From assembly GCF_900115505.1 (NCBI RefSeq), contig NZ_FOWQ01000004.1:180250-244249 (forward strand): 64,000 nucleotides of DNA, in the 5' to 3' direction. A program made the position numbers and the translations under genes. The stretch's first letter is position 1. Every line of letters begins with the position of its first letter. The notes beneath the pieces are model-generated. The model saw only the letters and a program-made list of their open reading frames with translations, was not told where the DNA came from and ran no database searches. This document shows, piece by piece, positions 2,761 to 38,423 of this stretch. This DNA is from Geodermatophilus dictyosporus. GTDB taxonomy: Bacteria; Actinomycetota; Actinomycetes; Mycobacteriales; Geodermatophilaceae.

Positions 2761-3915
2761 TCAGTAGGTGCTGCGGAGCAGCAGGTCCGGCGTGCCCGTG
2801 GGCTCGCCCGCGATCCGGCCCGCGGTCGCGCCGCCGGTGACGGCCGAGGCGACCGCCGCGGGGGAGGCCGTCGGGGCGCCCTGCAGGAACAGCGCGGCGA
2901 CACCGGCCACGTGCGGGGTGGCCATCGAGGTCCCGCTGATCGTGTTGGTCGCCGTGTTGCTGGTGTGCCAGGCGCTGGTGATGCCGACGCCCGGCGCGTA
3001 GAGGTCCACGCAGGTGCCGTGGTTGGTGAAGGAGGCGGAGGCGTCGTCGCGGTCGCTGGCGGCCACGGTGAGCGCCGCCGGCACGTTCGCCGGCGAGGTG
3101 GTGCACGCGTTGGCGCTCTCGTTGCCGGCGGCGACGGCGTAGGTGACGCCGTCGGTGATCGAGGCCTTGACCGCGTTGTCGATGGCCGTGCTCAGACCGC
3201 CGCCCAGGCTCATGTTCGCCACCGCGGGTGCGCCGGGAGCGTGGTCCCGGGTGACGTAGTCGATGCCGGCGACCACCCCCGAGGTGGTCCCGCTGCCGGT
3301 GCAGCCCAGCACCCGGACCGGCACCAGCGTGACGTCCTTGGCCACCCCGTGGGTGGTGCCGCCGATGGTGCCGGCGACGTGGGTGCCGTGGCCGTTGCAG
3401 TCCTCGGTGGTGTTGCGCCCGCTGACCGCGTTGTAGCCCGCCCGGAAGCTGTTGGCGACCTCGGTGTGCGTCGAGCGGATCCCGGTGTCGATGACGTAGG
3501 CGGTCACCCGGGCGCCGGTGGCGGTGTAGGTGTACCTGCTGTCGAGGGGCAGGGCCTGCTGGTCGATGCGGTCGAGGCCCCAGGGGGCACCGGTCTGCGT
3601 GGCCTCCACGCCGAGCACCTGGTCGCGCTCCACGGCGACGACGCCGGGCTGGGCGGCCAGCCGGCTCGCGGCGGTCTCCGGCAGGGTGACGGCGTAGCCG
3701 CGCAGGGCCGCGGTGTAGACGTGGTCGATCGACCCGCCGAGCCCGCGGGCCCGCTCCGCCGCCTGCTCGGGGAGGGTGGCGCGGTCGACGGTGACGACGT
3801 AGGTGGCGCGCGGTCCGTCGGCCGGCGCGGCCGCGGCGGGACCGGCGGTGACGCCGAGGCCGGTGGTCGCCAGGGCGGCGACGGCGCCGGCGACCAGGGT
3901 GCGACGAGTGGGCAA
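2761..3915 (-). CDS. secreted S8 (subtilisin-like) serine protease
   Basis: A 384-residue secreted subtilase. Residues 1-31 form a signal peptide with an arginine pair (TRRTLVAG) and an Ala-rich cleavage region, so Tat export is possible. An inhibitor-I9 type propeptide follows (about residues 37-105). The catalytic triad is intact: D143 in YVIDTGI, H176 in [10 protein letters not shown] and S330 in [12 protein letters not shown]. The start codon is TTG, preceded by GAGGAG seven bases away; no ATG or GTG fits the signal peptide better. The C-terminus is short, with no cell-wall or binding domain. It is transcribed alone, converging with ltaE. Confidence 0.93.
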
Positions 3916-35617: not shown

Positions 35618-36550
35618 CTACCCGGTCACCGACAGCGTCGTCCACACCCGGGAGTGCGCCGGGTGCGTCGCCCGGCAGGTCAGCTGCACCGCCTCGGCCG
35701 ACGGCCGGCTGTCGAGCCGGACGACGACGTCGCCCGCCGGGCCGGCCAGCACCACCTCGAACCGCTCGACGCCCTCGGCCTCCTCGGCGTCGGTGCCGGG
35801 CAGCCGCCGCGAGCCGCGCACCGGCAGGTCGTCGACGCCGAGCAGCCCGGTGGACTCCCTCGCCGCGGCCTGGGCGGCCTGCGCCGGCATCGACAGCCCG
35901 GCGCGTCCGCGCAGCCAGGGCAGCGCCACCTGCCCGCGGGTGTGCGCGGCCACCACGTCGGCGCCGTCGCCGGGCACCGCGCCGTAGGCGAACCCGTGCG
36001 GCAGCACCAGCACGTTGGAGGCGAACCGGCAGCCGCCGAGGTGGCTGCACTCCCAGACGTCGGCTGCGGGCATCGACCGGGCCAGCGGCCGGCCGCGCAG
36101 CGCGCAGCAGGCGTCGTGCTGGCCGTGCGTGCAGACCAGGTAGGTGGGTCGCTCCGCCCGCTCGCCGACCGACCCGTCCCAGGGGGCCGCCAGCAAGTCG
36201 GCGTCCTCCGTCCGCACCGACCACCACAGCCCCTCGCGGCCGGGCCGGCCGTCGGCGTAGGCCCAGCCCCGGCCGGTGTCGGCGAGCCGTTCCCCGGGAC
36301 GGCGGACCAGCAGCACCCGCACGCCCTCGGCCCGCGCGCGGGCCGACAGCCGGGCGGCGACACCGCGGTCGAAGCGGGACTGGGTCAGGGCGTCGCGGCC
36401 CCACGGCCCGGGCTGCTCGACCAGCAGCCAGCGCTGCGCCGGTGAGGCCGTGCCCACGGGGGAGTCCCCGCGGGCCTCGGCCGTCACCGAGCACCGGGTC
36501 GCGTCGAGCCGGCCGGCCGGGGTGGAGCGGGAGGCGGCCGGGGTGCTCAC
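35618..36550 (-). CDS. sucrase/ferredoxin-like family protein
   Basis: A 310-residue thioredoxin-like [2Fe-2S] protein of the sucrase/ferredoxin-like family. The conserved CTHGQHDACCALRGRPLA and WECSHLGGCRFASNVLVLP supply the cysteines for an iron-sulfur cluster, and GLWWSVRTEDADLLAAPWDG precedes them. The function is not known. The start is unsure: GTG at 36550 follows the JmjC stop, while ATG at 36607 would overlap the JmjC gene. It is encoded on the same strand as the JmjC gene and probably belongs to its operon. Confidence 0.82.
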   Translation of the reverse strand: MSTPAASRSTPAGRLDATRCSVTAEARGDSPVGTASPAQRWLLVEQPGPWGRDALTQSRFDRGVAARLSARARAEGVRVLLVRRPGERLADTGRGWAYADGRPGREGLWWSVRTEDADLLAAPWDGSVGERAERPTYLVCTHGQHDACCALRGRPLARSMPAADVWECSHLGGCRFASNVLVLPHGFAYGAVPGDGADVVAAHTRGQVALPWLRGRAGLSMPAQAAQAAARESTGLLGVDDLPVRGSRRLPGTDAEEAEGVERFEVVLAGPAGDVVVRLDSRPSAEAVQLTCRATHPAHSRVWTTLSVTG

Positions 36551-36569
36551 CGGGGGCAGGGCCGCGGGC

Positions 36570-37973
36570 TCACGACCCGGTCCCGAGGGCGTCGGCACGC
36601 TCCCCATCGTCCCCGCCGGCGTCCGGCGCGGGCGCACCGGGACCGGTCGGGCCCGGCTCGGGGGCGGTGGCCGGGACGCCGTCGACCCCGCCGCTGCCGG
36701 GGGAGGCGGCGTCGGCGACCAGCGCGATCGACTCGGTCACCAGGCGACGGGCGAGGGTGAGCCGGTCGTCGGGGTCCAGGCCGGTCAGGTCGGCCACCTT
36801 GAGCTCGCCGGCGGCCAGCAGCGCGGCCAGCGCGGGCCGGGTGGCCGCGGGGAACTCGTGCCGGCGCCGGCCGCCGAGCAGGACGACCCGGTCGCCGTCG
36901 CCCTCGCGCAGCGCCACCCGGAGCCGGCGGCGCAGCCGCAGCACCGAGTCCGGCGTGAGCGCCGCGGCGGCGGTGGCCTGGGCCAGCGGCGCCACCGGCT
37001 CGGGGCGCACCTGCGCCCAGGTCCGCGAGCGCAGCCGGTCGGCGACCTCGTCGGGGTCCACCCGGTCCAGCCAGTCCCCGAGCGCGGCGACGACGGCCCG
37101 GACCTCGTCGCGCACCGACCCCGGGTCGGCCAGGTCCAGGCCCAGCGGCAGCGAGCGGCGCAGCTCCCGGTCCTCGGCGGCCAGCACCCGCACCAGGTCC
37201 AGCGCCGACTCCGCGGCCGCCCAGCGGGTGACCGGGTGCACGCCGATGGTCAGGTGCGCGCTGGTCTGGCCGAGCGCCACCGCCGAGTGCAGGTAGCCGC
37301 GGGGGAGGTAGAGGGCGTCGCCGGGGCGCAGCACGGCGTCGATCACCGGTTCGCGCTCCGCGGCGGCGGCGACCGCGGCCGACCGGTCGGTCCAGGGCTG
37401 GGTGCGCAGCGGGTCGGGCAGCACCGGCTCGTGGATCGTCCAGTGCTTCTCGCCGGCCACCTGCAGCACGAACACGTCGTGGACGTCGTAGTGGGGGGAG
37501 AAGCCGCGCGAGGACGGCGGGGTGACGTAGGCGTTGACCTGCGTGGGGTGCCCGAGGTCGGCGGCCAGCTGGTCGGCGAACTCGATCAGCGGCGGCCAGA
37601 GCCGGTGCAGGCCCTGCAGGACGACGGTGCTGCCGTCGGCGAACAGCCGCAGCACGGCGTCGGAGGAGACCTGGTCGGCGATCTCGGCACCGGCGCCGCC
37701 GGAGCTGGTGAAGCGCGTGGCGTCGACGACCTGGCCGTCCTTGGCGATGCGCAGGAACGGGGTGCGCAGGCCGCGGCGGGAGAGCAGCTCGTCGACGTCG
37801 GCCAGGGTCAGCAGGTCGGCGAAGGACTCACCGGTGTCCTCGGCGCGGGCGAGCAGGGGGCGGCGGGACCAGTGCTGCCCGGCGAAGACCTCCGGGTCGA
37901 GGTGCGTGCACCGGCGCAGGGCCGGGCGGAGGTCGCCTCCGCCCGGCCCGGTGCCTGTCGGGTCCTGGCTCAG
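36570..37973 (-). CDS. JmjC/cupin ribosomal-oxygenase-like protein (CTG start)
   Basis: A 467-residue cupin_4/JmjC Fe(II) and 2-oxoglutarate oxygenase. Iron ligands are H161 and D163 in SPHYDVHDV and H229 in YLPRGYLHSAVA; EKHWTIHEPV and VNAYVTPP fit the fold. A winged-helix-like C-terminal region follows, then a disordered Gly/Pro tail. Relatives hydroxylate Arg or His in ribosomal proteins. The only start giving a protein without an Arg-rich run is CTG at 37973; its TGA overlap (CTGA) with the peptide gene mimics the ATGA/GTGA junctions seen elsewhere in the window. No ATG or GTG is available in frame until deep in the domain. Confidence 0.85.
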   Translation of the reverse strand: MSQDPTGTGPGGGDLRPALRRCTHLDPEVFAGQHWSRRPLLARAEDTGESFADLLTLADVDELLSRRGLRTPFLRIAKDGQVVDATRFTSSGGAGAEIADQVSSDAVLRLFADGSTVVLQGLHRLWPPLIEFADQLAADLGHPTQVNAYVTPPSSRGFSPHYDVHDVFVLQVAGEKHWTIHEPVLPDPLRTQPWTDRSAAVAAAAEREPVIDAVLRPGDALYLPRGYLHSAVALGQTSAHLTIGVHPVTRWAAAESALDLVRVLAAEDRELRRSLPLGLDLADPGSVRDEVRAVVAALGDWLDRVDPDEVADRLRSRTWAQVRPEPVAPLAQATAAAALTPDSVLRLRRRLRVALREGDGDRVVLLGGRRRHEFPAATRPALAALLAAGELKVADLTGLDPDDRLTLARRLVTESIALVADAASPGSGGVDGVPATAPEPGPTGPGAPAPDAGGDDGERADALGTGS

Positions 37974-38263
37974 GCCGAACCGTCCGCACCGCCGTCGGCC
38001 CCGCCGTCGGCGCCGCCGTCCGAGCCGCCGCCCGAGGCACCGCCGTCGGCCGGGCCGTGCCCGGCGCCGCCGTCCGCGCCGCCGTCGGCGCCACCGTCGT
38101 GACCGGCACCGCCGTCGGCCGTGCCGTCGGCACCGCCGTCGTGGCCGGCACCGCCGTCGGCCCCGCCGTCCGCGCCGCCGTCGTGGTGGCCCGGCGTGCC
38201 CTCGCCCGCGCCGCTGTCGGCCGGACCCTCCACGCTGGTCATGTCGTCGTCGTCGAGCGCCAT
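37970..38263 (-). CDS. Gly/Ala/Asp-repeat acidic peptide
   Basis: A 97-residue protein starting MALDDDDMTS and then made almost wholly of GGAD, GTAD and GAGHDGG repeats. It is strongly acidic with about seven His residues and no Lys. There is no signal or membrane segment. ATG has GGAGGAG upstream. The stop overlaps the CTG start of the JmjC gene. The shape, a short repetitive acidic peptide directly upstream of an oxygenase, suggests a substrate of that enzyme or a modified peptide product. This is inference from proximity. The GC-rich 9-bp codon repeats are prone to slippage. Confidence 0.7.
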   Translation of the reverse strand: MALDDDDMTSVEGPADSGAGEGTPGHHDGGADGGADGGAGHDGGADGTADGGAGHDGGADGGADGGAGHGPADGGASGGGSDGGADGGADGGADGSA

Positions 38264-38423
38264 CGAGCTCCTCCGGGGATCCGGGTCGGGACCGTCCGCC
38301 GGACGACGGTCGGTCGTGTCCCACCTAACCCGTTCGGTGTCCCGCCACACATGGCCCGACCTGCCGTTTCACGACACGCGCGGACACCCCGCCGACGCCG
38401 CGCCGGCGCCCGCGGCGGGCGGC

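Follow-up and report, generated by a model that had tools for sequence, protein, structure and literature searches.

How is the short Gly/Ala/Asp-repeat reading frame that lies directly ahead of a JmjC oxygenase gene in Geodermatophilus dictyosporus related to the enzyme whose gene it overlaps? The window, a stretch of 64,000 nucleotides from this genome, carries on its minus strand a putative Asp-repeat precursor peptide gene of 97 residues (37970..38263; ATG at 38263-38261, stop codon TGA at 37972-37970), preceded by a Shine-Dalgarno sequence, GGAGGAG, that can be read from the sequence (38268..38274, minus strand). The translation, MALDDDDMTSVEGPADSGAGEGTPGHHDGG...GADGSA*, is built of Gly/Ala/Asp repeats: the N-terminal segment MALDDDDMTSVE (38228..38263, minus strand) is kept and constitutes a putative leader or recognition motif of [DN]DD[IM] type, and behind it stands a variable Asp-repeat core (GPADSGA..., HDGGADGGA, GADGSA; 37973..38227, minus strand). 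The window peptide matched no family in Pfam or NCBIfam; the peptide family likewise gave no match in NCBIfam, and eight other peptides searched against Pfam returned a single sub-threshold match (E 2.8). When the N-terminal 40 codons were compared between related pairs, third codon positions differed about twice as much as first and second positions (0.35 vs 0.17 and 0.15); nonsynonymous differences counted over these pairs (16847) were slightly more numerous than synonymous ones (15466) and hence the amino-acid constraint in this segment is moderate.

The JmjC gene (36570..37973, minus strand) encodes a JmjC_2 (PF08007) 2-oxoglutarate/Fe(II) oxygenase with a predicted NO66-like fold, 467 residues in length when read from a CTG codon. 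This CTG is part of the bases CTGA (37970..37973, minus strand), which also hold the stop codon of the peptide gene, and translation of JmjC probably begins there: from the shared CTGA to the conserved RPALRRC stretch the JmjC frame contains no ATG, GTG or TTG, and the sole upstream start given for this frame in the list of open reading frames, GTG 38324, lies ahead of the peptide gene. A weak CTG start may serve to keep the enzyme low relative to the peptide.

The JmjC protein was found in 108 of 112 Geodermatophilaceae genomes and in 12/12 genera. At 70/70 family loci examined (a subset of all matches, with two loci, L050 and L074, cut at a contig end) the orthologous JmjC gene is immediately preceded by a Gly/Ala/Asp-repeat reading frame of the GGAD type, with an in-frame CTGA overlap at 67 loci, GTGA at one and a gap at two (L072 and L073, where about 115 bases separate the peptide gene from the JmjC start as projected). 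The arrangement that the initial annotation had described for the window, a 97-residue repeat peptide immediately ahead of JmjC and sharing CTGA with it, is confirmed there, and with a reading frame of this type at all 70 family loci it can hardly be a product of chance. As a separate observation, the bases GCCTGA are nearly always retained (window, L009-L078), although the synonymous Ala codons GCA and GCG would yield ATG or GTG; part of this retention is possibly codon bias, since GCC is the most frequent Ala codon in these peptides (797/1337).

Beyond the family, a GGAD-type peptide was recognised at 19 of 20 loci fetched at the order level by reading, and at 18 by an automatic rule; L126 carries an Asp repeat of another type. 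At the class level the peptide was present at 23/23 higher-scoring JmjC loci (20 GGAD, 3 DADGTD), and among 15 lower-scoring loci it was present at two (L159, L160) and found at none of the other 13. A set of 80 named loci from Geodermatophilus, Blastococcus, Modestobacter, Kribbella, Micromonospora, Paractinoplanes, Actinokineospora, Pseudonocardia, Saccharopolyspora, Cellulomonas, Herbiconiux, Marmoricola and others showed the peptide at 74, with five loci beginning too near the gene to judge and one lacking it (73, six and one by a second rule). This single locus, L218 from Kribbella pratensis, holds a close JmjC orthologue and no recognisable Asp-repeat reading frame; there the JmjC frame is open upstream and carries a different, Asn/Leu/Gly-rich repeat. 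In the sample of 20 loci from other classes, peptides such as ...RDDDMSTSGPLDADRPAADADGTDGDATD... occur at 16, two loci (L261 and L265) display different repeats after a [DN]xDI start, one is cut and one (L268) has no peptide.

With the distinct loci sampled over the whole phylum sorted by JmjC score, an Asp-repeat peptide is found upstream at 180 of 181 testable ones of at least 255 bits (176 by the automatic rule and four by eye; six further distinct loci untestable), at 3/6 distinct loci between 200 and 255 bits and at 0/11 below 200 bits, with the 255-bit cut having been chosen after inspection of the data. A profile built from 15 peptides and run against 51 whole genomes matched 14 of them: all 16 matches lie at a JmjC locus, and no match came from the 30 genomes in which JmjC was not found at 1e-20. 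The profile is not fully sensitive, because 7 of the 21 genomes with JmjC went unmatched; their peptides are pure GGAD or divergent, and the window's own is among them. Absence of the peptide beside JmjC homologues in related genomes would have spoken against a functional pair; what we found instead is a pairing that is near universal in close orthologues, near-exclusive and widely conserved in the phylum.

The family peptides vary in repeat number, whilst the start MALDDDDMTS is kept and the end GADGSA mostly kept. A strict [DNES][DEN][DE][IM] motif stands ahead of the repeats in 148 of 179 peptides, a rule that misses some peptides having the start, for example at the window's own locus; GGAD, DADGTD and ADGTDQGVxGGTYGPRD (L261) cores are all located behind a [DN]DD[IM]-type start. 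The peptides thus exhibit a conserved-start/variable-core architecture. Core composition was taken from the C-terminal 45 residues in a set of 182 peptides: Asp is present in 182/182 cores (mean 9.1, least 4), Ser in 173, Pro in 124 (absent from 58), His in 103 and Cys in none. The most frequent spacing of core Asp residues is 4, and Gly follows 74% of them. GPAD and PGxHDGG units are found repeatedly across many lineages, and the L141 peptide is a near-pure GGAD repeat. In the L048 peptide (3424-3810, minus strand), a GGLIDKVRDKVRDVIGGDKGAD stretch is inserted within the GGAD repeats. Histidine, which the initial annotation had named beside Asp as a residue to be modified, is ruled out by these counts as the general target: 79 of 182 cores are without it and none is without Asp.

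Core type follows the JmjC enzyme tree: on a tree of 102 proteins, made with a quick method and including some long branches and near relatives, the GGAD label required 2 changes (31.3 when shuffled) and the DADGTD label required 4 (20.0 when shuffled).

Turning to the enzyme, the window JmjC protein matches PF08007 with 98.7 bits (curated cut-off 22), and 37/37 scanned JmjC members matched this family at E up to 1 (best 1.6e-30). The HxD iron ligands of the JmjC domain, His161 and Asp163, are encoded at 37485..37493 (codons 37493-37491 and 37487-37485) and the distal ligand His229, within PRGYLH, at 37287..37289, all on the minus strand; the three residues are invariant in the 37-row alignment. 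HxDxHD, containing the first two ligands, occurs in 189/191 distinct JmjC loci and the strict distal-His pattern PRGx1-3H in 173/190. As HxDxHD is likewise present in 11/13 distant JmjC relatives, it marks a wider actinobacterial group and not the peptide-JmjC pairing. The AlphaFold2 model (mean pLDDT 85.3) predicts a double-stranded beta-helix, a helical middle and a winged-helix C-terminal domain; Foldseek placed NO66 (4ccn) first with TM 0.64/0.65 and 24% identity over 460 alignment columns, followed by MINA53, YcfD and YxbC. The winged-helix-like domain (JmjC residues 341-422; 36708..36953, minus strand), modelled with strands within 344-375, helices 376-388 and 401-413 and a short element between the helices, is a candidate leader binder. 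One enzyme clade of seven members has peptides without DDD[IM] that begin with a different short start: its enzyme changes fall in 3/27 conserved columns of the winged helix, 4/133 of the JmjC part and 1/30 in between, a weak concentration in the winged helix that speaks little for covariation of leader and enzyme there. A scan of 37 JmjC proteins at E up to 1 brought up 13 families; PF05402 (PqqD/RRE) was not one of them, and a PqqD/RRE identity by sequence was rejected on this ground. An AlphaFold2 prediction of a read-through precursor-JmjC chain gave the peptide at low confidence, with docking not seen.

The gene that follows (35618..36637, minus strand) encodes a Suc_Fer-like (PF06999) [2Fe-2S] ferredoxin-like protein with 61.2 bits against a cut-off of 34.9; its start is uncertain (GTG 36637 or ATG 36607), and with either candidate it overlaps the end of the JmjC gene. 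The initial annotation had proposed it as an electron source for the pair. It proves to be a frequent third member, present on the same strand after JmjC at 90 of the 122 loci whose DNA extended far enough (88/119 distinct loci) and in 17/20 loci from other classes, with one weak match (L256), and also beside the lower-scoring loci L159 and L160; the proposal does not extend to 22 named Micromonosporaceae loci (family by organism name), where the gene was not found, nor was it found at 10 others. None of the 13 distant JmjC relatives has it on the same strand (12 testable; L149 has 437 bases downstream), and two of them (L157 and L162) show a weaker Suc_Fer match on the opposite strand. C169, C177, C178 and H199 are conserved in 48/48 aligned Suc_Fer-like proteins, an alignment whose seeds were picked by a motif containing His199, and are the presumed cluster ligands. 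Position 203, which we take to be the HxxxH position of yeast Apd1/Aim32, is Asp in 35/48 and Cys in 13/48.

The dedicated pairing, the tracking of the enzyme tree by core type, the common start motif and the intact active-site motif lead us to infer a leader/core precursor that is modified by the JmjC enzyme. That the peptide is a JmjC substrate by some chemistry appears likely; that it is a RiPP-like precursor on which the NO66-like enzyme hydroxylates Asp is the reading we favour, and we regard it as reasonably probable. The earlier suggestion of an enzyme-substrate pair is supported in part, by the dedicated pairing, with its extension to His as a general target having fallen away. Asp is favoured over His because it is present in all cores and stands before Gly in 74% of cases, whilst His is found in only 103/182. 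The translationally coupled operon would supply a short, disordered precursor together with its modifying enzyme. The peptide would consist of a short N-terminal recognition segment (MALDDDDMTS, or a [DN]DD[IM]-type start elsewhere) and a core with many copies of small units, each presenting a central Asp beside Gly or Ala. The JmjC enzyme would bind the recognition segment, perhaps via its C-terminal winged helix, and with Fe(II), O2 and 2-oxoglutarate would hydroxylate many core Asp residues, adding 16 Da each, probably at the beta carbon. Where present, the Suc_Fer-like ferredoxin might keep the enzyme iron reduced or act in a later redox step. If Asp is the target, a minimal RiPP-like class would be defined and hydroxyaspartate polymers would become accessible to genetic programming; we know of no earlier JmjC enzyme that is dedicated to aspartates repeated along a peptide. 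We know of few bacterial JmjC oxygenases with known substrates; here a large JmjC group, covering the window's class and other classes, has its presumptive substrate encoded adjacent, so that the chemistry is testable by one co-expression.

The enzyme could also act on the peptide by other chemistry, for example hydroxylating Pro or His in the GPAD and PGxHD units, or introducing a hydroxyl group that leads on to cross-links or, at Asp-Gly, to backbone changes of the isoaspartate type, a possibility that we consider unlikely. The recurrence of GPAD and PGxHDGG units in many lineages and of Gly after most core Asp residues agree with it, as do the His, Arg and Orn targets of known JmjC hydroxylases; yet His is missing in 79 and Pro in 58 of the 182 cores, and the L141 core is almost pure GGAD. 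We see a rather slim chance that JmjC modifies another protein, for example a ribosomal one as in the case of NO66 and YcfD, with the peptide regulating the enzyme, be it by stoichiometric inhibition, by activation or as a translational leader that determines how much enzyme is made: the nearest folds are those of ribosomal oxygenases, the tight coupling and CTG start suggest a set stoichiometry and the peptide is disordered in the AlphaFold2 model. However, such a role poorly explains a core that diverges in sequence and length yet keeps its Asp residues, or the several repeat chemistries that share an N-terminal motif, and the peptide is retained at some loci despite an intergenic gap. Quite improbable is an unmodified metal chaperone or iron-loading subunit for the JmjC-ferredoxin pair; Asp-rich, Cys-free repeats, often with His, whose gene is followed by that of an iron enzyme and at many loci by that of an iron-sulfur protein, are in keeping with such a function, but it accounts less simply for the conserved-start/variable-core architecture, and to our knowledge 2-oxoglutarate oxygenases generally have no need of a dedicated chaperone. 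A GC-rich low-complexity artefact deserves virtually no credence and was ruled out: simple repeats of this kind do leave more than one frame open over long distances, and the peptide gene has 41 low-complexity DNA matches elsewhere in its own genome, but start, frame, Shine-Dalgarno sequence and position are all kept across the sampled phylum and third codon positions vary about twice as much as first and second ones.

Amongst known systems, the ribosomal oxygenases NO66, MINA53 and RoxA (YcfD) of PF08007 share the predicted whole-length fold, including the C-terminal domain, and the HxD...H iron site. What sets the JmjC enzyme here apart is a small Asp-repeat peptide gene of its own beside it, to which a Suc_Fer-like gene is often added; NO66, the nearest solved structure at 24% identity, reads HYDDIEAF where the window JmjC group has HxDxHD. 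According to PMC12707348 and PMC12257519, ornithine in biphenomycin-type RiPPs is hydroxylated by the JmjC protein BipG (BipG/BpmG) and by PbsQ, a related cupin-like enzyme: there too an Fe/2-oxoglutarate enzyme is encoded beside a precursor peptide, which is hydroxylated in that case and would be by analogy here, but the target is ornithine and the cluster a large one with MNIO/radical-SAM enzymes, as opposed to a two- or three-gene unit with an Asp-repeat core. The accessible text of PMC12710340 reports fish and algal PF08007 proteins with RRE-like folds and bacterial homologues in RiPP-like contexts, and the general idea of JmjC proteins in RiPP pathways is therefore already known; the winged-helix end of the window JmjC may resemble these RRE-like domains, and in that same text Asp-repeat precursors, a ferredoxin gene and the operon are not described. 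For nitrilobacillin, PMC13060819 describes Asp beta-hydroxylation of a RiPP precursor, a reaction like the one proposed here, although performed by an MNIO enzyme on one Asp and not by JmjC on repeated Asp residues. No description of the peptide family or operon was found in titles or the beginnings of abstracts among the matches listed from the open-licence literature, which is no proof of absence, and the peptide motif strings gave no match in that literature. The peptide-JmjC(-Suc_Fer) set looks like an undescribed peptide-modification system.

As to the purpose of a hydroxylated product, we can offer a doubtful proposal: genetically encoded poly-hydroxyaspartate polymers might serve as an intracellular multivalent Fe(III)/Ca chelator, with Suc_Fer reducing and releasing the iron, possibly in a general stress response. 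If true, this would represent a new type of encoded metal-buffering biopolymer. The element GTT-N14-19-GGGTA, which we take to resemble SigB/SigF stress promoters, precedes the peptide gene at 20/42 loci that our split of the set placed outside Geodermatophilaceae (L202 and above; shuffle mean 0.34), at 33-70 bases ahead of the start codon (L202-L248). These occurrences are not independent, because 19 of the 20 are from Micromonosporaceae, the remaining one being L217; in the Geodermatophilaceae set the element is present at 3/30 loci (shuffle mean 0.09). A looser variant was found at 13/42 loci outside and 18/30 within this family. The element is a hint of a stress-sigma promoter of the peptide genes. 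Within 3-4 kb, no protease or exporter was recognised by eye in the 14 largest neighbour clusters, based on crude gene calling. Finally, distant JmjC_2 loci (L152, L155, L158, L150 and L151) have short precursor-like reading frames nearby that end in DSDGTDSSSDFI, SDSDGSDGLNYPEGQ, DPDPSDDCWIVCNPNYCY or TDPDPTDAAWHPA, which suggests that JmjC-linked peptides extend beyond the Asp-repeat type.
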